Positions 6,748 through 27,419 of a stretch of DNA of 34,807 nt are shown here, piece after piece (positions within the stretch are counted from its first letter, which is position 1; each line of letters starts with the position of its first letter). The notes below the pieces were generated by a model. That model ran no database searches, had not been told where the DNA came from, and worked only from the letters and a program-made list of their open reading frames with translations. A program made the translations under genes and the position numbers. Source of the stretch: Hyphomicrobiales bacterium (GTDB taxonomy: Bacteria; Pseudomonadota; Alphaproteobacteria; Rhizobiales; JAJFHB01); the NCBI GenBank assembly GCA_021775615.1, contig JAJFHL010000130.1, positions 1 to 34,807 of the forward strand, read 5' to 3'.

Positions 6748-9700
6748 ATGCGAGTCGAACGGCGATTCACACTCGCGGGCGTTTCACCTTATGAAGCGGT
6801 CGCGTTTAAAAAGACCACTGGCGACATCCGGAATCCGGACGGCTCGGTTGTCTTCCAGCTGGAAGGCATCACGGTTCCGAAGTCCTGGAGCAAGGTGGCA
6901 ACCGACATCCTGGCACAGAAATATTTTCGCAAGGCTGGCGTTCCGGCCGCGTTGAAGCGGCTGCCCGAGGAGGCGGTTCCCGATTGGCTCTGGCCGTCGG
7001 TCGCCGATGAGGCGGCCCTTGAGGATCTTGCCCCGGAGGCGCGCACCGGCTCGGAACTCGATGCCCGTCAGGTGTTCGACCGTATGGCCGGCGCGTGGAC
7101 CTACTGGGGCTGGAAATGCGGCTACTTCGATGCCGAGAGCGATGCAGCCGCCTTTTTCGACGAAGCCCGCTACATGCTGGCGACCCAGCGCGCCGCGCCC
7201 AACTCACCACAATGGTTCAACACCGGTCTGCACTGGGCCTATGGCATCGAGGGTGACGGCGATGGCCATTACCATGCCGAGGCCGGCACCGGACGGGTGC
7301 GCCGATCCCGGACCCAGTATCTCCATCCCCAGACCCATTCCTGCTTCATCCAGTCGGTCGACGACAACCTGGTCAATGAAGGCGGCATCATGGATCTGTG
7401 GATGCGCGAGGCCAGGCTCTTCAAGCACGGCTCGGGCACCGGCACCAATTTCTCCAAGGTGCGCGCCAAGGGCGAGGCCCTGTCCGGTGGCGGCTGCGCC
7501 CCCGGCCTCGTGGCGCTGCTCAAGGTCGGCGACTGTTCCGCCGGTGTCCTGAAGTCGGCCGGCGTCACCCGGCGCGCCGCCAAGATGGTGGTGGTCGATG
7601 TCGATCACCCGGACATCGAGGAATATATCGACTGGAAGGTCGCCGAGGAACACAAGGTCGTGTCGCTGGTGACCGGCTCGGCCGTCACCGCGCAGCACCT
7701 CGACGCCATCATGGCGGCGGCGACCGACGCCTGCCGCCGCACCGGAGAGGCGTTCGACGTCAACGCGACACCGGTGCTCAAGGCGGCCATTGCCGCGGCC
7801 ATGGCCGCAAGGGTGCCTGAAAACTACATCCACCGTGTCGTGCATCTGGCGCGCCAGGGACACGGCCAGGTCAATTTCGAAGTTTGCGACGCCAACTGGG
7901 ATTCGAGCGCCTATGCCACGGTGTCCGGCCAGAACTCGAACAATTCGGTCCGGGTGTCGAAGGATTTTCTCGACGCGGTCGAACGCGATGCGCCATGGCA
8001 CCTGATCTCGCGCACCACCGGCAAGACGGTCCGCACGGTGAAGGCGCGCGACCTGTGGCACAAGATCGCCTATGCCGCCTGGTCGTCGGCCGATCCCGGC
8101 ATTCACTTTCACACAACCATCAACGACTGGCACACCTGCCCGCAGACCGCGCCGATCGAAGCGTCGAACTCGTGCTCGGAGTTCATGTTCCTGAACGATA
8201 CCGGAAGCACGCTGGCATCGCTCAACCTGATGAAGTTCCATGACGCCGAGGACGGCTTCGACACCGACGCCTACGCCTATGCGGCAAGACTGTGGACCCT
8301 GGTTCTCGAAATCTCAGTGGCAATGGCGCAGTACCCCTCGCGCCTGATTGCGCAGCGCACCCACGACTACCGCCCGATTGGTGTGGGTTATGCCAATCTC
8401 GGCGGTGTGCTGATGGCCTCCGGCGTGCCGTATGGTTCGCGCGAAGGCCGGGCCGTATGTGGGGCGCTCACAGCGATCCTCGCCGGCGTCGCCTATGCGA
8501 CGTCGGCCGAGATCGCCGCCGAGCTGGGACCGTTCAGAGGATACAAACGCAACGCTGCTGACATGCTCCGGGTCATTCGCAATCACCGGCGCGCGGCCCA
8601 TGGCGAACGCGGCACCTACGAGGCGCTGCACTGCGAGCCGGTGCCGCTCGACACCGACGCCTGCCCGGACGCACGGATGACCGAGCGGGCCCGTGATGCC
8701 TGGGACCGGGCGCTGGAGCTCGGGCAAGCGCATGGCTACCGCAATGCCCAGGCAACGGTCATCGCGCCAACCGGCACGATCGGCCTGGTGATGGATTGCG
8801 ACACCATGGGCATCGAGCCGGATTTCGCGCTGGTCAAGTACAAGCAGCTTGCCGGCGGCGGCCATCTCAAGATCGTCAACCAGGTTGTGACCGACGGACT
8901 GCACGCACTCGGCTATGACGCGGGCGCCATCGACCGCATCGTTGCCTATGCCACGGGACGCAACACCCTGGAGAACGCGCCCGGTATCAACCACGAGGTT
9001 CTGCGCGCCAAGGGGTTTGGCAAACACGATCTCGCGCGCCTCGAGGCGGCCCTGACCGGCGCCTTCGATATTCGTGTCGCGTTCAACATCTGGACCCTGG
9101 GCGAAGCGTTCTGTGTCCAGAAACTCAGGTTCTCCGAGGATCAGCTGTTCGACCCTTCGTTCGACATGCTCGACGCTCTCGGCTTTTCGTCAAGCGACAT
9201 CGGGCGCGCCAATGCGTTTTGCTGCGGCGCCATGACACTGGAAGGCGCGCCGGATCTGGACCCGAAGCACATCGCGGTGTTCGATTGCGCTTCTCCCAAT
9301 GGCCGCTATGGCACGCGCTGCCTGTCTGTCGACAGCCATATCCGCATGATGGCGGCGGCGCAGCCCTTTGTGTCCGGCGCGATTTCCAAGACCATCAACA
9401 TGTCGAACACGGTGGCCGTCGAGGAATGTTCGCAGGCGTACATGTTGTCGTCCGAACTGGGACTGAAGGCCAATGCGCTTTACCGCGACGGCTCCAAGCT
9501 GTCGCAGCCGCTCGGCACTTTGATGTCATCGGCCCATGTCGACGCCGATGTCGACCGTATCGCCGAGATCCAGGTACCGGTGGAACTGCCGACCGTCGGG
9601 GAGGCGCTCGATCGCGTGCTGATGGATTTTGTTGATGCCGCCGACATCGAGGCGGTTTCCGGCGCGCGGCCGGCGCCGCGCGAGCGCGCCAGGTCTGCAG

Positions 9701-9756
9701 GTCGCCCCGACAAGGGCGATGACGGCGGCGGTCGCCGTGCGGCGGCGGGCAGCTGA
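6748..9756 (+). CDS. nrdJ: Class II (adenosylcobalamin-dependent) ribonucleotide reductase, C-terminally short and missing a redox Cys
   Basis: A 1002-residue protein that follows rhizobial-type NrdJ from its first residues (MRVERRFT) through to [14 protein letters not shown] (about 909-922). Active-site features seen: C199 in THSCFIQS (first redox Cys), N474/C476/E478 in NSCSE (thiyl-radical Cys with its Asn and Glu), and the APTGTIGLV loop. Two things are missing. The second redox Cys, expected 11 residues after the radical Cys as in Lactobacillus NrdJ (408/419), is S487 in DTGSTLAS. The usual C-terminal region of some 250 or more residues, with the TSCPD-type domain and zinc-ribbon cysteines that pass electrons from thioredoxin, is absent; instead a tail of about 80 residues ends R/G/A-rich. 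The next gene starts 9 bp later on the other strand, so the region is not hidden in another frame. The ATG at 6748 has GGGG 7 nt upstream; a TTG at 6730 is less likely. Confidence 0.88.
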
Positions 9757-14936: not shown

Positions 14937-14958
14937 ATATTGAATGAACGTTCAATAT
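14937..14958. promoter_or_regulatory. TetR-type palindromic operator at the start of the Rieske gene
   Basis: Perfect 8-bp arms ATATTGAA (14937-14944) and TTCAATAT (14951-14958) flank TGAACG. The inner 14 bases, TGAATGAACGTTCA, resemble the palindrome TGAACGTCCGTTCA in front of the TMADH-like gene (21393-21406). The site covers the ATG at 14944 and would block either transcription or initiation. Confidence 0.55.
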
Positions 14959-16167
14959 TATAGCCGAGCCAATCCCATGACCGCGCAGACCTCTCTCCAA
15001 ACAGCATCGCTTTCTTCGGTTCCCGAGGACTGGGACCGGAGCGGCCTGCCGCCATGGACCTACAACAACACCGAATTGCTGGAGTTGGAAAAAGAGCTGC
15101 TGTTTCGATGCCACTGGCAGCTCGCCGGCCACGCAGCGAACATTCCCAACCCGGGTGACTTCCTGACCTTCGACATCGTCGGCGAGCGTGCTCTCGTGCT
15201 GCGCGGGCGCGACGGCGTGGTGCGGGCATTCCACAATGTCTGCCGCCATCGCGGTTCGCGCGTGGTGGCCGAAGAACACGGCACCTGCAAGTCAGCCCTG
15301 TTCTGTCCGTTTCACGGCTGGTCCTTCAATCTCGACGGCACCTTCCGCTCGGCGCCGATGCCGCGCAGCCTGCCCGAGCTCGATCCGGTCGAACACGGCC
15401 TCATTCCTGTGGAAATGGAACTGTGGCACGGCTTCATCTTCATACGCTTCAAGCCCGGGCCCCAGCCCGCAATCGCCGAGATCATGGCGCGCCACGAGCA
15501 AGAGATCGCCCCCTACCGGCTGGACGACCTGGTGTGCGACGGCGGCTTCTGGCAGGACGACATCGCGGTCAACTGGAAGTGCGTCCGCGACGTCGATAAC
15601 GAGGGCTATCACGTTCCCATGGCCCATCCCGGCCTGCAGGACCTTTACGGCAAGCACTATTACGACGAGCCGATCGAGGCGGGCACGTCCCGGTCATTCG
15701 CGACATTCAATGAAAGCGATGCCAAGTTGTGGGGCGTCAGGCACTACAAGAAGGTGCTGCCGGAAATGCCGCATCTGCCGCCAAGCCACCGCGCCGCCTG
15801 GCTCTATATCGGCATTTTCCCCAACACGGTGATCGAATTTCATCCCGAAGGCATCTCCTACTATCAGGAGTTCCCGCAAGGCATTGCCGAAACCTCACAG
15901 CGCGGCGCCGGCTATACCTGGCCCGATCAGAGCCGCGAGGCCAACCTTGCCCGCTATCTCGGCAACCGCATCAACCGCGACACCCAGGACGAGGACGTCC
16001 AGCTCATCATCTGGTCGCATGAAGCCATGTCGTCGAGCGGTTACGAAGGGTTCATCCTGTCGGATCTGGAATACGGGGTTCGCAACTATCACGATGAACT
16101 GCGCCGTTTGATGCCCGTGTTCAACGAACGGACCGAGCCGCCGCCGGGAACGATTGCATTGCGGTAA
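14944..16167 (+). CDS. Rieske non-heme iron oxygenase, alpha subunit (quaternary-amine type)
   Basis: A 407-residue oxygenase component. Rieske [2Fe-2S] ligands: C100-R-H102 and C121-PF-H124. Mononuclear iron ligands: H223 and H228 in NEGYHVPMAHPG, and probably D351. The residue three before H223, which links the two metal centres and is Asp in most family members, is E220; a bridging Glu is known in carnitine- and betaine-oxidising members such as CntA and YeaW. N-demethylation or C-N cleavage of a quaternary amine is therefore a reasonable inference. No reductase partner lies in the window. The start is uncertain: ATG 14944 has GAGG 9 nt upstream but lies inside the operator; ATG 14977 would give 396 residues and leave the operator free. 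Divergent from the acyl-CoA dehydrogenase. Confidence 0.87.
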   Translation: MNVQYYSRANPMTAQTSLQTASLSSVPEDWDRSGLPPWTYNNTELLELEKELLFRCHWQLAGHAANIPNPGDFLTFDIVGERALVLRGRDGVVRAFHNVCRHRGSRVVAEEHGTCKSALFCPFHGWSFNLDGTFRSAPMPRSLPELDPVEHGLIPVEMELWHGFIFIRFKPGPQPAIAEIMARHEQEIAPYRLDDLVCDGGFWQDDIAVNWKCVRDVDNEGYHVPMAHPGLQDLYGKHYYDEPIEAGTSRSFATFNESDAKLWGVRHYKKVLPEMPHLPPSHRAAWLYIGIFPNTVIEFHPEGISYYQEFPQGIAETSQRGAGYTWPDQSREANLARYLGNRINRDTQDEDVQLIIWSHEAMSSSGYEGFILSDLEYGVRNYHDELRRLMPVFNERTEPPPGTIALR

Positions 16168-20667: not shown

Positions 20668-21327
20668 TCAGTTCGTGTCGAGCGGGCCCTCGTTGGAAAA
20701 ATGCCGGGGAAAGACGCAAGTCAGATATTGCGAGACGCTGGCAAGCCCTCGCCTGCGGGACATGCGGTCGGGGTCCATCAGAATCGACAGCCACATGCCT
20801 TCCAGCATGGCGTCGAGCCCGGCGGCCAGCTTCCCGGCGTCGGCGTCATAACCGCCATCGGCGATGAGGTCGCGACACAGATCGACAATTGCGCCCAGAA
20901 AAGCATCGTCCGGGCGGCGGCTGATCCGTCTGTAGGTCGGGCGCGACTGGGCTTCGACCCTGAGCGCGAACCACGCCGCGATGGTGCGTTGGTTGCAAAC
21001 GCTTCGGTCAAAGTCGGACTTTACCAGCGCCCACAGTTTTTGCGCCGGACCAGGTGCGGCAGTGCGGAGTGCCTCGCGCCAGTTGGCCTCGTAAGCCGCC
21101 GACATGAACCGCAGGGTTTCCGCCAGCAGCTTCTCCTTGCTCTCAAAATGAAAGTTGACGATGCCGCGCGACAGGCCGGCGCCGTCGGCCACATCCGCCA
21201 TGGTGGTTGCCGCAAATCCGCGCGCGGCGATGGATGTGATCGTCGCCTCGATCAACTGCCCGCGCCGAACCTCCTTGGAGGCCTTGCGTCTGGCGGGCTT
21301 GTCGGTTTTCTGGTCGATCCCGGTCAT
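20668..21327 (-). CDS. TetR-family regulator (BetI-like)
   Basis: A 219-residue repressor. The HTH region (about 22-70) includes IAARGFAATTMADVADGAGL and GIVNFHFESKEKLLAE, close in pattern to BetI-type TetR proteins, and the C-terminal ligand domain is full length. The ATG has AGGA at good spacing. It starts an operon with the MBL-fold hydrolase and diverges from the TMADH-like gene; a palindrome, TGAACGTCCGTTCA, lies in the gap. It likely represses that gene and itself, and perhaps the Rieske gene with a related palindrome. The inducer is unknown; BetI responds to choline, which would fit an N-methylated ligand but is only suggestive. Confidence 0.87.
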   Translation of the reverse strand: MTGIDQKTDKPARRKASKEVRRGQLIEATITSIAARGFAATTMADVADGAGLSRGIVNFHFESKEKLLAETLRFMSAAYEANWREALRTAAPGPAQKLWALVKSDFDRSVCNQRTIAAWFALRVEAQSRPTYRRISRRPDDAFLGAIVDLCRDLIADGGYDADAGKLAAGLDAMLEGMWLSILMDPDRMSRRRGLASVSQYLTCVFPRHFSNEGPLDTN

Positions 21328-21392
21328 GCGCTATCCTGCTTCATTCGGTGCGGGAGGGTAGACCGTTAGGCGGGGTGGCACAATCCGATTGC

Positions 21393-21406
21393 TGAACGTC
21401 CGTTCA
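21393..21406. promoter_or_regulatory. TetR-type operator between the TetR/MBL operon and the TMADH-like gene
   Basis: TGAACG-TC-CGTTCA is a perfect palindrome in the 165-bp divergent gap, 66 bp after the TetR start and about 87 bp before the flavoenzyme start. It resembles the inner part of the palindrome at 14937-14958. Confidence 0.6.
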
Positions 21407-21492
21407 AAATGGATGGACACGGATTTGCCGGCCGTGGCATGTTTCGCCGCCTCCCGTTCAGCCGTCCCCACAACCAAAAAAGGTGCGGATCC

Positions 21493-23559
21493 ATGCGTGA
21501 CCCGAGATACGACATTCTCTTCGAGCCGGTTCAGATAGGTCCCGTCACCGCGCGCAACCGGTTCTACCAGGTGCCGCATTGCTGCGGCATGGGCCATCGC
21601 TATCCCGATTCCATGGCCGAAATGCGCGGCATCAAGGCTGAAGGCGGCTGGGCGGTGGTGTGCACCGAAGAGGTCGAGATCCATCACACCAGCGACCTCG
21701 GCCCCTATATCGAAGGCCGGCTGTGGAGCGATCAGGATATTCCCATCATGGCCAAGATGGCCGACAAGGTTCACGAGCATGGCTCGCTTGCCGGCATGGA
21801 GCTCGTTCATAACGGTCACCATTCCTACAACCGCTACAGCCGCGCTGTGCCGCTGTCGCCGTCCGACATCACGCTCGACAACGAGGATCCGGTGCATGCC
21901 CGGGCCATGGACAAACAGGACATCGCCGACCTGCGCCGCTGGCACCGCAACGCCGCGTTGCGCTCGCGCGAGGCCGGGTTCGATATCGTCTATGTCTATG
22001 CCGCGCACGACATGACCATCCTGCAGCACTTTATCTCGCGCCGGCACAATACCCGCACTGACGAGTATGGCGGCAGCCTGGAGAATCGGGTGCGCCTGTT
22101 CCGCGAGGTGCTGGAAGACACCAAGGAGGCGGTGGGCGACCGCTGCGCGGTGGCGGTCCGTCTTGCGGTGGATGAACTGCTCGGGCCCGACGGAATCGAA
22201 GCCTCCGGCGAAGGCCACGACATCGTCGCCATGCTGGCCGACATTCCAGATCTCTGGGACGTCAACATCTCCGGCTGGGATAATGATTCCCAGACCGCGC
22301 GTTTCGCCGAAGAAGGCTACCAGGAGCCCTATATCAAGTTCGTCAAGTCGCTGACCTCCAAGCCGGTGGTCGGTGTTGGACGCTACACCTCGCCGGACGC
22401 CATGGTGCGTGTCGTCAAGCAGGGCGTCATGGACATGATCGGCGCGGCGCGGCCCTCGATCGCCGATCCGTTCCTGCCCAAGAAGATCGAGGAAGGCCGC
22501 ATCGACGACATCCGCGAATGTATCGGCTGCAACATCTGCGTCTCCGGCGACTTCACCATGGCGCCGATCCGCTGCACCCAGAACCCGACCATGGGCGAGG
22601 AATGGCGCAGCGGCTGGCATCCCGAAATCATTCCGCCGGCGCAATCGGAAGCGCCGGTTCTGGTTGTCGGAGGAGGTCCGGCCGGCCTTGAAGCGGCCCG
22701 CGCGCTGGGTGCCCGGGGGCTGGACGTTGCGCTGGCGGAACGGTCGGAAGACTGGGGCGGGCGGGTGCCCAAGGAGGCGGCGCTGCCGGGCCTTGCCACC
22801 TGGAAACGGGTCACCGACTGGCGCATGGGCCAGCTCCACAAACTGCCCAATGTCGGTCTTTATCTCGCAAGCGACATGACCGCGGACGAGGTGCTCGCCT
22901 TCGGCGCCTCGCAGGTGGTGCTCGCCACCGGTTCGCGCTGGCGCCGCGATGGCGTCGGCAAGTCCATGCATCACGCGTTTGACGGTGGCGATGCCGGCCC
23001 GCTGATGACCCCGGACGACATCATGGCGGGCCGCATGCCCTCGGGCGACGGTCCGGTCGTCATCTATGACGACGACGGGTACTACATGGGAGGTGTCATG
23101 GCGGAGGCGTGCGTGGCGGCGGGCCTCAAGGTCGTGATCGTGACGCCCACTTCCGTGGTCTCGCCATGGACCGCCTACACGCTGGAGCAGCCTCGCATCC
23201 AGGCGAAACTGATCGAAATGGGCGTGACCATTCATGCCAACAAGGTTGTGAGTACGCGGTCCGGAGGCGAGCTGCGGATCGCCTGTACCTTCACCGGCCG
23301 GATCGAAACCATTGCCTGCAACACTCTGGTCATGGTGGCCGCGCGGCTTCCGAACCGCGAGCTTTATGATGCCGTGATGGCGCGGGTGCCCGAATTCGAG
23401 GCGGCGGGCATCGAGAGTGTGCAGCGCATAGGCGACTGTCTGGCGCCTGCCACCATCGCCGCCGCGGTCCATTCCGGCCACCGCTGTGCCCGTGACTTCG
23501 GCCGCAATGTGGATCGCGACGAGGTGCCGTTCCGGCGCGAGACGATCATGCTGGAATGA
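21493..23559 (+). CDS. TMADH/DMADH-like flavin and iron-sulfur oxidoreductase
   Basis: A 688-residue enzyme: an N-terminal OYE-type FMN barrel (1-335), a 4Fe-4S motif, and C-terminal nucleotide-binding domains (from VLVVGGGPAGLEAARALG). C30 in QVPHCCG corresponds to the Cys that covalently binds FMN in trimethylamine dehydrogenase. Cluster cysteines are C343, C346, C349 and C361. Y169/H172-type active residues are kept in VYVYAAHD. Two of the three aromatic residues that hold trimethylamine are changed: Y60 to E60 and W355 to D353. So it is in this amine/N-methyl demethylase family, which also includes stachydrine-pathway StcD, but probably does not act on trimethylamine. The ATG has AAGGTG 8 nt upstream. 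It is divergent from the TetR/MBL operon. Confidence 0.9.
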   Translation: MRDPRYDILFEPVQIGPVTARNRFYQVPHCCGMGHRYPDSMAEMRGIKAEGGWAVVCTEEVEIHHTSDLGPYIEGRLWSDQDIPIMAKMADKVHEHGSLAGMELVHNGHHSYNRYSRAVPLSPSDITLDNEDPVHARAMDKQDIADLRRWHRNAALRSREAGFDIVYVYAAHDMTILQHFISRRHNTRTDEYGGSLENRVRLFREVLEDTKEAVGDRCAVAVRLAVDELLGPDGIEASGEGHDIVAMLADIPDLWDVNISGWDNDSQTARFAEEGYQEPYIKFVKSLTSKPVVGVGRYTSPDAMVRVVKQGVMDMIGAARPSIADPFLPKKIEEGRIDDIRECIGCNICVSGDFTMAPIRCTQNPTMGEEWRSGWHPEIIPPAQSEAPVLVVGGGPAGLEAARALGARGLDVALAERSEDWGGRVPKEAALPGLATWKRVTDWRMGQLHKLPNVGLYLASDMTADEVLAFGASQVVLATGSRWRRDGVGKSMHHAFDGGDAGPLMTPDDIMAGRMPSGDGPVVIYDDDGYYMGGVMAEACVAAGLKVVIVTPTSVVSPWTAYTLEQPRIQAKLIEMGVTIHANKVVSTRSGGELRIACTFTGRIETIACNTLVMVAARLPNRELYDAVMARVPEFEAAGIESVQRIGDCLAPATIAAAVHSGHRCARDFGRNVDRDEVPFRRETIMLE

Positions 23560-23717: not shown

Positions 23718-25502
23718 TTACCCCATCGCCGGGCCGTCCACCTGCGGCAGGTCCTCGCGCACCCAGCTCTGGAACGCCCGCACCGCGATTTCCTTGTCGC
23801 CGAGCACGCCCGTGTCATAGGCCGATGTACCGAGCCCGCCCTGCACTGACGACACCAGGGCGCAGTCTTCCTTGTGGACCTGCCAGGTGATGCGCCCGCC
23901 GAGGAACCGGCAGGCCTTGATTTCCCGGCTCGCCCCCGGCAGTCCGTAGGTCCCGCATCTGAGCACTGAGCGCCCGGGCGCAACCGGCACGATGTGGAAG
24001 AAGTCCATCTGCTCGGGATATACATCGAGCGACACCGCCGGATAGAGGAAGAAGTAGCTCCATCGGTGCCGGGCCTCTTCGGGCAGGTGTTCCAGGTCGG
24101 GCAGAAGACTTGCGTAACGCTTCACCGACCAGTCGCCTTTCGGCTTGTCGCGCATGGCATGGCTGAGCCGCACCGCGCGGCGGGCATCGTCGGGTTCGCG
24201 GTCATAAGCCGGCGTCATCAGTCCGTAGAGACCCGGGTGGCCGGTCGGGAAATGATAGTCCTCGAGATAGTTGTCCCACACGTTCTTCCAGTCGGCAGTG
24301 ATCTCCTGCTCGTAGAACGGGGCGACCGGCTCCATGTCTTCAAAGCGGTAGGGGGCAAGTTCGTCCGCGAAGGGCGCGTAGCGTTGCGCCACGCTCGGGC
24401 CGTTGCCCGCGAACCGGATGAAGACCAGTCCCATGAAGATTTCCAGGTCCAGGGCACGCAGGCCGAACTGGCCGTCGTCGAACGGCGGAAAGGTCTTGCG
24501 TGACGCGATGGCCACCAGGTCGCCGGTAAAATCGAACGTCCATGCGTGATAGGGACACCGCACCCGGTGTTCGCACGAGCCCTTCGTGCCGCTCACCACC
24601 GCATGGGCCCGGTGCGGGCACACATTGTGGAAGGCCCGCAGTTCGCCATCCTCGCCGCGGATGACAAAGGCGCGCTCGCCAAGCCCGGTGAAGGTGAAAT
24701 AGTCGCCGGGCTCGCGCACATCGGAGACATGGCAGACGAGCTGCCATGCCGGCTTGTGGATCTGCTCGACTTCACGTTTGAAGAAGTCGTCCGAAGCATA
24801 GGTCCATGCCGGCAGCGTGCGGGGCAGGTCATCAGGCTTGGGCAATATGGCATCCGCGGGCCGCGTATCGGCAAGGTCCGGAAACAGATTGGCGAGATAA
24901 TCCCTGCAGGTCGCCATCGCCGCCGAATGGTCGAACCCTGTCGGGTCGAGCAAAAGCATCTGCCATTGGGCATCGACCACGCCGGTAAGGCCAAGGGTCG
25001 CGGCATCCACGGCGATGGATGTGCCATGCTGTTTCGCCAGCTGTTCGATGAGGCTGCGAACCGCGGCTTCGAAGGCCTGGTCCGAATGGCCGCAGATCGA
25101 CAGGTAATCGTGCCGCGCCTGGCTCTCGCCCCAGAAGGCGTACCACACCGCGACGCGGCCCGGTTCGCAGATCTGCGGATCGAAAGCCGCCGAGACCAGA
25201 GCTATCAGAGCGTCTGCCGGCTCGTCACCGGCCTTTGCAATGGCCGCCTCGCAGACATCGGCGAACTCGTCGGCGACAAACTGCAGCGTTGCGGTCAGCA
25301 GCGCCTGTTTGCTGTCGAAGTGAAAGTTGATCATTGCGGCTGTCAGGCCGACCTCGGAGCCCACCTTGCCCAAAGTGACGTGCGACAGGCCGTGTTCGGC
25401 GATGGCCGAGATGGTGGCGTGGATCAGTTGTTCGCGGCGCACGCCCTGCGGCTGCCGCGCCGGGTCGGAACCGGCGATTTTATCGAGCATGGGTCTGTCC
25501 AA
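23718..25502 (-). CDS. TetR repressor fused to Rieske non-heme iron oxygenase
   Basis: One open frame of 594 residues holds two full proteins. Residues 1-212 are a BetI-like TetR regulator (HTH about 24-70, with GLTAAMINFHFDSKQALLTA). Residues 228-594 are a Rieske oxygenase alpha subunit: C295-P-H297 and C316-PY-H319 bind the [2Fe-2S] cluster; H417 and H422, with probably D546, bind the catalytic iron. As in the other Rieske protein of this window the bridging residue is Glu (E414), as in carnitine/betaine oxygenases. A short proline-rich linker (about 213-230) joins them. No stop or frame change lies at the join, and no good internal start was seen; M196 is the nearest candidate but lacks a ribosome site. 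An AT-rich palindrome precedes the gene, so the protein may repress its own synthesis. Divergent from the cupin/MATE operon. Confidence 0.88.
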   Translation of the reverse strand: MDRPMLDKIAGSDPARQPQGVRREQLIHATISAIAEHGLSHVTLGKVGSEVGLTAAMINFHFDSKQALLTATLQFVADEFADVCEAAIAKAGDEPADALIALVSAAFDPQICEPGRVAVWYAFWGESQARHDYLSICGHSDQAFEAAVRSLIEQLAKQHGTSIAVDAATLGLTGVVDAQWQMLLLDPTGFDHSAAMATCRDYLANLFPDLADTRPADAILPKPDDLPRTLPAWTYASDDFFKREVEQIHKPAWQLVCHVSDVREPGDYFTFTGLGERAFVIRGEDGELRAFHNVCPHRAHAVVSGTKGSCEHRVRCPYHAWTFDFTGDLVAIASRKTFPPFDDGQFGLRALDLEIFMGLVFIRFAGNGPSVAQRYAPFADELAPYRFEDMEPVAPFYEQEITADWKNVWDNYLEDYHFPTGHPGLYGLMTPAYDREPDDARRAVRLSHAMRDKPKGDWSVKRYASLLPDLEHLPEEARHRWSYFFLYPAVSLDVYPEQMDFFHIVPVAPGRSVLRCGTYGLPGASREIKACRFLGGRITWQVHKEDCALVSSVQGGLGTSAYDTGVLGDKEIAVRAFQSWVREDLPQVDGPAMG

Positions 25503-25543
25503 AATGACTGTTGTGTGGTAATTAAATGCTCAAACAGTATAAC

Positions 25544-25557
25544 TAAATGATCATTTA
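25544..25557. promoter_or_regulatory. Palindromic operator between the TetR-Rieske fusion and the cupin gene
   Basis: TAAATGATCATTTA is a perfect 14-bp palindrome, 42 bp upstream of the fusion start and about 84 bp upstream of the cupin start. A related half, TTAAATGCTCA, lies at about 25522-25532. The size suits a TetR dimer, but the sequence differs from the TGAACG-type sites, fitting a different repressor, most simply the fusion protein itself. Confidence 0.5.
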
Positions 25558-25640
25558 ATTGCAAGTCGAATCGGTTTCCCGTTGCCCCGGCCTCGGCGAA
25601 GGTGTTGAACTCCGGCGCCGGTTTCCCAAAGGAAAAGCTC

Positions 25641-26012
25641 ATGAAAAAGATCCAGCCCGACGAGCGTCGCATCGCCAACATCCACTCGGCCGACTACACA
25701 CCGTGGCCGGGGGAAGACGGCGCGCCGTCCGGGTCGAGCGTCCTGCAACTGGACGACGCGCATAAGATGGGCGTCGGGTTTCACATCTACCGGATGGAGC
25801 CGGGTGTGTGGAGCGATCCGCATGAGCACACCGGCACCGAACAGTTCCTGGTGCTCGAAGGCGAACTGGTCGAGTGCGATGGAACGGTCTACCGCCAGGG
25901 CGATCTGGTGTGGCTCAAAAAGGGCACCCAGCACACCTCTCATGCTCCCAACGGCTGCCTGTTGGCGGTCCACATCGAAACTCCTGAAAAACCGATCCCC
26001 GGTGACGGCTGA
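25641..26012 (+). CDS. Cupin-domain protein
   Basis: A 123-residue single cupin. The first cupin motif is in PHEHTGTEQFLVLEGEL (H-x-H...E), and the second is GDLVWLKKGTQHTSHAPNG, with the third His. A metal site is therefore complete. It resembles small ChrR-like cupins, which may be enzymes or sensors; no function can be given. The ATG at 25641 is chosen because AAAGGAAA lies 6-7 nt upstream; the frame is open to 25602 without other support. It is followed by the MATE gene after 6 bp and is divergent from the TetR-Rieske fusion. Confidence 0.82.
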   Translation: MKKIQPDERRIANIHSADYTPWPGEDGAPSGSSVLQLDDAHKMGVGFHIYRMEPGVWSDPHEHTGTEQFLVLEGELVECDGTVYRQGDLVWLKKGTQHTSHAPNGCLLAVHIETPEKPIPGDG

Positions 26013-26018
26013 GGACCT

Positions 26019-27419
26019 ATGGACGGTGCCAGGATCGATGATCCCATCAAGACCGGTCCGATCGCCGCCGAGGTCGGCTCGCTTGCGCGCATAGCTCTGC
26101 CGCTCGTCGCGGCATATCTGGCTGAAGTCGCCATGTTCCTCACCAGCAAGATCGTGGTGGGCCGCCTTGGTTATGAAGAGCTTGCCGCCGTCGGTCTTTC
26201 CAGCGGCATCGCTATGGAGCTGCTCTTTGTTTTCATGGGCCTTCTGTCGATCATCGGCGTACTGGTTGCTCAGGCCGAAGGCGCCGGCACCAAGGCGGCC
26301 GCCGGTCACGCCACCCGTCAGGGCATCATTGTCGCATCTGTTCTTGCGGTGCCGGCAACGGCTGCAGTCTGGAACCTCGACTGGTTGATGCGTGTGACTG
26401 GACAAGACGCCCGCGTCATCGAACTGGCGGGGCCATACCTGCATGCGGCCGCCGGCTTTATGCTGCCGGCCTTGTGGTTCGCGGTCCTGCGCAGTTTCGT
26501 GTCGGCTCTGGCCCGCACCGGGGCAGTCATGGTCATAACGGTTTCAGCTGTGGGCTTGAACTATGTCCTCACCGTGGGCTTGGTGGAGGGCGCTTTCGGT
26601 CTGCCCATGCTTGGGATCGCCGGCGCCGGATGGTCGCTGACCATTGTCACATGGACAATGTTCGGTGCGCTCACACTCTACACCTATTTCAGTCCGGCAC
26701 TGCGGGGCTACGGCCTGTTCCGCGGCCGCCTGCGCTTCGATCCGGTTCTGTGCAAGGAGATCATGTTGCTGGGCACGCCAGTCGCCGGCATTGTCATCTT
26801 CGAAGGCGGTCTTTTTCTCACGGTGTCGATCCTTTCGGGCACATTTGGCGCGGTGCAGTTGGCTGCAGCCGAGATCCTGCTTGCCTGGGTCTCCATTGCG
26901 TTTGTCTTTGGTCTCGGATTTGCCGAGGCGACCATGGTGCGCGTCGCCACATGTGTCGGGCGGGCAGCCCCGATTGCAGCCCGCCGCGCCGGCATTATCG
27001 GCATGGTCATAGGGGTCGCCATTCTGGCGTTGTTGGTGGTGCCGCCCCTTGCCTTGCCCGAACTCATAGTAGAGCTGTTTCTCGAGCCGACCGATCCGGG
27101 CTTTGAGGCTGTTTCAGAACTGGCAACGGCGTTGCTTGCGGTGGTCGCGATATTTCAGGTCTTTGATGCCCTGCAGGCGATCGCGGTTCGGGCACTGCGC
27201 GCTTTCAAGGATACTTTGGTGCCCCTGTGGCTTGCCGGTCTCGGCTATTGGGTCTTCGGTATCGGCGGCGGCTGCCTGCTCGCCTACCCGATGGCGTGGG
27301 GCCCCGCCGGCCTGTGGTGGGGTATGGCGCTGGGGCTGATATTCACCGGATCCCTGCTCGCCTGGCGCTTCCTGACCCTTGCCGCTGCCAGGGCCGCTCC
27401 CATATCTGGGGCACCATGA
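26019..27419 (+). CDS. MATE-family multidrug/metabolite efflux transporter
   Basis: A 466-residue inner-membrane protein with about 12 membrane segments in two similar halves, the size and layout of MATE exporters. Typical stretches are LPLVAAYLAEVAMFLTSKIVVG near the N-terminus and VSIAFVFGLGFAEATMVRVA in the second half. MATE proteins exchange cationic or organic compounds for Na+ or H+. Its position behind the cupin gene (6 bp, with GAGG between) and opposite the TetR-Rieske fusion suggests export or exchange of the pathway's compound, but that is inference. Its stop overlaps the ATG of the ArfB-like gene (ATGA). Confidence 0.87.
   Translation: MDGARIDDPIKTGPIAAEVGSLARIALPLVAAYLAEVAMFLTSKIVVGRLGYEELAAVGLSSGIAMELLFVFMGLLSIIGVLVAQAEGAGTKAAAGHATRQGIIVASVLAVPATAAVWNLDWLMRVTGQDARVIELAGPYLHAAAGFMLPALWFAVLRSFVSALARTGAVMVITVSAVGLNYVLTVGLVEGAFGLPMLGIAGAGWSLTIVTWTMFGALTLYTYFSPALRGYGLFRGRLRFDPVLCKEIMLLGTPVAGIVIFEGGLFLTVSILSGTFGAVQLAAAEILLAWVSIAFVFGLGFAEATMVRVATCVGRAAPIAARRAGIIGMVIGVAILALLVVPPLALPELIVELFLEPTDPGFEAVSELATALLAVVAIFQVFDALQAIAVRALRAFKDTLVPLWLAGLGYWVFGIGGGCLLAYPMAWGPAGLWWGMALGLIFTGSLLAWRFLTLAAARAAPISGAP

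Follow-up and report, generated by a model that had tools for sequence, protein, structure and literature searches.

Within the 34,807-nucleotide stretch of DNA analysed here (the window), a TetR-type repressor appears to be joined in frame to a Rieske oxygenase. This raises the question of whether the two really form one polypeptide and, if they do, whether such a protein could control its own synthesis in response to the compound that it oxidises.

One reading frame for a repressor and an oxygenase

The preliminary description of this locus had reported a BetI-like TetR repressor and a ligand-complete Rieske oxygenase in a single open frame, and this was borne out by our analysis (Table 1). 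The 594-codon frame encodes four Pfam domains, all of which exceed their gathering cut-offs: TetR_N, the helix-turn-helix domain, at residues 26-71 (E 1.3e-7, 31.7 bits against a cut-off of 24); TetR_C_6, the BetI-type ligand and dimer domain, at residues 95-207 (E 1.6e-12, 48.1 bits against a cut-off of 27); Rieske at residues 253-337 (E 5e-20); and Ring_hydroxyl_A at residues 399-584 (E 5e-31). The ligands of the Rieske cluster and of the non-haem iron are complete, as is the bridging glutamate. The TTG from which the frame was listed is probably not the true start. We prefer the ATG at 25490 (codon 5) as the likely start, because it lines up with the MLD... starts of the relatives; a protein begun there would have 590 residues. 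The AlphaFold monomer model (mean pLDDT 93.4) shows two well-predicted bodies, a short disordered segment at residues 215-218 and a middling pTM of 0.67, which would suit two domains linked by a flexible tether.

Table 1. Positions and strands of the fused gene, its parts, its control region and neighbouring genes in the window.
Feature	Position	Strand	Remarks
Fused ORF, BetI-type TetR repressor and Rieske oxygenase	23718..25502	-	594 codons from TTG
TetR half, residues 16-207	24882..25457	-	Pfam; AlphaFold pLDDT mostly >90
Linker, about residues 208-226	24825..24881	-	fast-evolving; low AlphaFold confidence at 215-218
Rieske [2Fe-2S] domain region, residues 227-390	24333..24824	-	cluster ligands C295, H297, C316, H319
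Catalytic non-haem iron domain, residues 391-590	23733..24332	-	Y412; bridging E414; iron ligands H417, H422, D546
Predicted operator 1, palindrome CTAAATGATCATTTAA	25543..25558	.	inside -35/-10 spacer; one mismatch
Predicted operator 2, weaker, TTAAATGCTCAAACAG	25522..25537	.	21 bp from operator 1
Sigma-70-like promoter of fused gene	25536..25564	-	-35 TTGCAA 25564-25559, 17-nt spacer, -10 TATACT 25541-25536
Divergent cupin gene, likely ATG 25641	25641..26012	+	start inferred from AAGGAAAAG ribosome site
MATE-family efflux transporter, downstream of cupin	26019..27419	+	domain match
Histamine/trimethylamine dehydrogenase-type FMN enzyme, convergent neighbour	21409..23559	+	histamine dehydrogenase 3e-247
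Second, unfused BetI-type TetR regulator	20668..21327	-	domain match

We searched 61 relatives, 397 genomes of the window's order, 385 genomes of its class and the species collection, and these searches yielded 20 distinct fused proteins, the majority of them from Alphaproteobacteria. Among the carriers are members of several families within the window's order, isolates of Inquilinus limosus and one MAG labelled Gammaproteobacteria. The fusion is uncommon. It was present in eight of the 397 genomes of the order, counting the decayed copy L024 (see below), and the class sample contained two further cases; no full-length copy other than that of the window was found in 398 genomes of the phylum, and no match to the full-length fusion among 72,556 plasmids. 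One record, L051, is named Mycobacterium sp. KBS0706 and carries a fusion near-identical to that of Inquilinus limosus; this record is probably misnamed or mixed.

These data confirm that the TetR-Rieske fusion is real. The window genome assembly is fragmented (392 contigs), and in principle an apparent fusion could stem from misassembly, from a frameshift or an overlooked stop, or from internal initiation that yields a separate oxygenase. We rejected such an artefact, which is now highly improbable, because the 20 distinct fused ORFs occur in independent genomes, isolates among them. Production of two separate proteins was rejected on the same ground and on a second one, i.e. that no conserved in-frame start with a ribosome site was found in the linker across the fused relatives; in two of them the linker has no start codon at all.

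Both halves are also under purifying selection. In close pairs, the TetR, Rieske and catalytic parts gave a dN/dS of about 0.06-0.24, and the linker usually a higher one. Every Rieske ligand, every iron ligand and the bridging glutamate are retained in 19 of the 20 fusions.

Features of the two halves, the operator and the gene neighbourhood

The best match of the oxygenase half, in both sequence and fold, was carnitine monooxygenase CntA, followed by the stachydrine demethylase Stc2, both of them group V (quaternary ammonium) Rieske monooxygenases. The fused protein has the CxH...CxxH cluster ligands, the His/His/Asp iron ligands and the bridging acid of a Rieske alpha subunit, and an aligned motif reads DNYLEDYHFPTGH in the fused protein and DNYMECYHAGPAH in the CntA structure entry. 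In this alignment the iron ligands are the same, Y412 corresponds to CntA Y203 and E414 to CntA E205. The aromatic ring of Y203 in CntA touches the quaternary ammonium group and E205 is the bridging residue (PMC7948474); an aromatic residue at the first position and a glutamate at the second are present in 19 of the 20 fusions. The Cys-x-x-Cys pair beside the iron, which is found only in some group V members, CntA and Stc2 included (PMC10952381), is absent from the fused protein, which has D415 and F418 at those positions. We predict from these residues that the oxygenase half is a group-V-like Rieske monooxygenase.

An oxygenase of this type would need a reductase, and the fused gene of the window has no reductase gene next to it. 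The window genome contains no member of the Reductase_C family and a search of it for a BphA4-type reductase found none; other FAD_binding_6 candidates are present. A BphA4-type ferredoxin reductase gene does adjoin the fused gene in L047, and in L048 a homologue of that reductase (same cluster) lies just upstream of the fused gene. The query also matched at least 20 other places in the window genome (6.26 Mb), a large set made up mostly of Rieske oxygenases.

The closest relative of the TetR half is BetI, the choline-responsive TetR repressor. However, the scores (90.5 against 201.3 bits, and 91 against 118 bits) fall below the NCBIfam equivalog cut-offs, and we rejected orthology with choline-sensing BetI. 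Because of these scores the ligand need not be choline, and no choline-betaine genes were seen beside the fused gene.

A palindrome had been noted at 25544-25557 in the preliminary description. This palindrome is real and slightly longer (25543-25558, with one mismatch), and it recurs, approximately as TTGAATGNNCATTCAA, in the promoter of almost every full-length fused gene. In the window genome it is the sole site at one mismatch or fewer. The predicted operator overlaps the fused gene's own promoter, and its place within the sigma-70-like spacer would be a classical position for repression. We trained an operator matrix on the fused loci and repeated the scan with each group left out; in nearly every full-length fused locus the best or near-best match was the promoter of the fused gene, and these promoter matches scored above the best in shuffled sequence. 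A second site is present 20-21 bp away, i.e. two helical turns, in 11 of 14 non-redundant loci. No operator was found before the fused gene in L098 and L024, and the upstream region of L053 is cut by a contig end. In L023, L024, L050, L052, L064, L066 and L097 the same motif precedes class III aminotransferase genes; some of these loci have a second BetI-like regulator nearby, so that not all of the sites can be assigned to the fused protein. Two further operator-like palindromes are present in the window, TTGAATGAACGTTCAA at 14940-14955, before a second Rieske oxygenase (14944-16167), and CTGAACGTCCGTTCAA at 21392-21407, in the gap that separates the unfused BetI from the histamine-dehydrogenase-like gene. 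The second BetI regulator perhaps binds at these two palindromes.

The operator-bearing intergenic region is shared by the fused gene and the divergent cupin gene. In relatives, genes for putrescine-type ABC transporters and class III aminotransferases lie near the fused gene, together with paired FAD amine-oxidase-like enzymes and a GcvT/TMAO-demethylase-like protein. An agmatinase-like gene next to L002 and a decarboxylase-like gene next to L003 were recognised by eye. The gene context points to a cationic or N-methylated amine as the putative substrate.

Proposed working of the fused protein and probable origins of the fusion

The reading that we favour, with a probability of roughly 0.58, is that repressor and enzyme in this one polypeptide make up a catabolic enzyme that regulates its own synthesis and acts on a cationic or N-methylated amine. 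The BetI-type TetR dimer would bind the paired palindromic operators of its own promoter and thereby repress the fused gene; in the window, binding would also cover the control region that the fused gene shares with the divergent cupin-MATE pair, and in relatives it would probably also occur ahead of aminotransferase operons. An incoming cationic or N-methylated amine would enter the TetR ligand pocket and cause the repressor to leave the DNA, leading to abundant production of the same polypeptide carrying an active group-V-like Rieske monooxygenase. The attached oxygenase would then oxidise the inducing amine, and repression would resume once the amine was exhausted. We infer DNA binding and repression from the protein family and the position of the operator; substrate induction, catalysis, the identity of the amine and the return of repression are likewise what we infer rather than observe.

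This reading draws on the number of distinct fused proteins and their near-uniform retention of the ligands and bridging glutamate, the low dN/dS of both halves, and the predicted operator in the fused gene's own promoter, which in the window lies in the spacer. It draws also on the CntA-like oxygenase with its aromatic residue of the kind that binds quaternary ammonium (PMC7948474), the BetI-like repressor half, the amine-handling neighbours and the reductase genes of L047 and L048. It is weakened by the lack of a reductase neighbour and of the Reductase_C family in the window genome, by the decayed L024, in which catalysis is evidently not needed, by L098 and L024 having no operator before the fused gene, and by the sub-threshold BetI scores. 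Of the two suggestions made previously, that of a sensor/repressor and its enzyme in one polypeptide was well supported by the conserved fusion, the selection on both halves and the operator, whereas nothing specific spoke for an enzyme tethered to DNA.

A further point against the favoured reading concerns assembly. TetR proteins dimerise. CntA is a head-to-tail trimer (PMC7948474), and because of these two states a mixed oligomer would be required; this suggests a hexamer built from TetR dimers and oxygenase trimers, which would be able to hold both tandem operators.

Alternatively, a neighbouring repressor and oxygenase could have been joined by loss of a stop codon and retained only for equal co-expression, with the two halves remaining uncoupled. 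A linker that varies from about 19 to 55 residues among the fusions, a pTM of 0.67 despite a pLDDT of 93, and the existence of unfused relatives of each half would all fit this. However, the fusion persists at 40-60% identity, and the same domain order seems to have originated twice (a single fused clade is rejected with AU p = 3e-5), and we regard uncoupled halves as quite improbable. The evidence on origins comes from trees. In those of the oxygenase domain most of the fusions fall in one clade with L095 and L098 outside it, and in the TetR tree L095 and L098 lie among ordinary BetI-like regulators. A single fused clade was rejected by the AU test for the oxygenase halves (p = 3.6e-6 with L024 and 2.9e-5 without it), and with it a single origin of all fusions for these halves. 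The fusion probably arose at least twice, as judged from these trees; one old fusion followed by repeated losses is a possible alternative.

In the decayed copy L024 (G007; 8044-9729) the TetR half is ordinary (branch 0.61), and the oxygenase half (branch 5.6) has lost all Rieske and iron ligands but two histidines. The oxygenase fold is still predicted, with a pLDDT of 82.5, a prediction helped by aligned relatives, and L024 would be a pseudo-oxygenase regulator. No other decayed fusion was found in the four genomes of its family that were searched. Two BetI-like regulators, L060 (7980-8882) and L061 (7950-8828), end in a short Rieske-like remnant without ligands. These tails match the start of the Rieske domain with 7.1 and 4.6 bits, compared with at most 0.8 in 1000 shuffles, a weak match but in the expected place; the L060 tail gave a Pfam Rieske E of 0.032. 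L061 and L064 (TetR alone) share much of a FAD-oxidase/GcvT-like gene group with L056, L057 and L024. Because the decayed L024 and the remnants in L060 and L061 keep the repressor half, the regulatory role appears to outlast catalysis: within the fusion, the repressor persists whereas the oxygenase can disappear.

Such cases bear on a further alternative, in which the protein is a transcription regulator first, its oxygenase half acts as a sensor (of substrate, of O2 or of redox state via the Rieske cluster) that contributes hardly any catabolic flux or none, and a separate oxygenase does the work. L024, with its intact TetR half and persisting oxygenase fold, and the remnants in L060 and L061 favour it, as do the unfused homologous oxygenases found in two loci: in L095 (9140-12315) one follows the fused gene and overlaps its stop codon by 4 nt at the start, and in L055 one is divergent across the operator. 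On the other hand, every catalytic residue is kept in 19 of the 20 fusions, selection constrains the catalytic domain as strongly as it does the TetR half, and a ferredoxin reductase gene or its homologue accompanies the fused gene in L047 and L048, which makes a purely sensory role somewhat unlikely. Under the favoured reading of a self-regulating enzyme, sensing may be an additional function of the oxygenase. A bolder version, which we consider rather unlikely, is that the Rieske oxygenase is itself the switch, such that the arrival of electrons or turnover at its cluster alters DNA binding by the attached TetR and L024-type proteins are iron-free pure sensors. If this were true, the repressor would report substrate, oxygen and reducing power jointly.

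Comparison with known systems

To our knowledge, few enzymes regulate their own genes, and most of those that do, PutA (trifunctional proline utilisation A) among them, are isolated cases. The logic proposed here resembles that of PutA, an autogenous repressor-enzyme (PMC5293562), but PutA has a ribbon-helix-helix domain and a flavin/membrane switch, whereas the present fusion would combine unrelated parts, i.e. a full TetR with its own ligand domain and a Rieske oxygenase. BzdR-type regulators offer a second analogy, in which one protein combines a DNA-binding domain with an enzyme fold serving as sensor of a pathway compound; BzdR itself is a helix-turn-helix domain fused to a shikimate-kinase-like domain that has lost catalysis (PMC3602430). 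L024 resembles such a state, but the enzyme domain of BzdR is non-catalytic whereas 19 of the 20 fusions here keep all catalytic residues. CntA and Stc2 have no DNA-binding domain and carry the cysteine pair missing from the fused protein. BetI matches over its full length, with TetR_N and the BetI-type C-terminal domain, but the fused protein falls below the equivalog cut-offs and bears a 370-residue oxygenase.

Autogenous repressor-enzymes and regulators derived from dead enzymes are already known. The preliminary description knew of no described system of this kind, and we likewise found no TetR-Rieske or other TetR-enzyme fusion in the open-access literature searched. A count of 70 companion domains for TetR/AcrR proteins does not mention Rieske in its main text (PMC5882156). 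If the favoured reading is true, this would be the first TetR regulator, in the literature searched, with an oxygenase that keeps its catalytic residues, and a one-gene inducible enzyme. With about 20 members, in forms that range from active through decayed to remnant, and with a probable origin on more than one occasion, this family would make the path from enzyme to regulator readable in living sequences. A related TetR with a different C-terminal extension, of about 110 residues, is present at L063:7920-8924.
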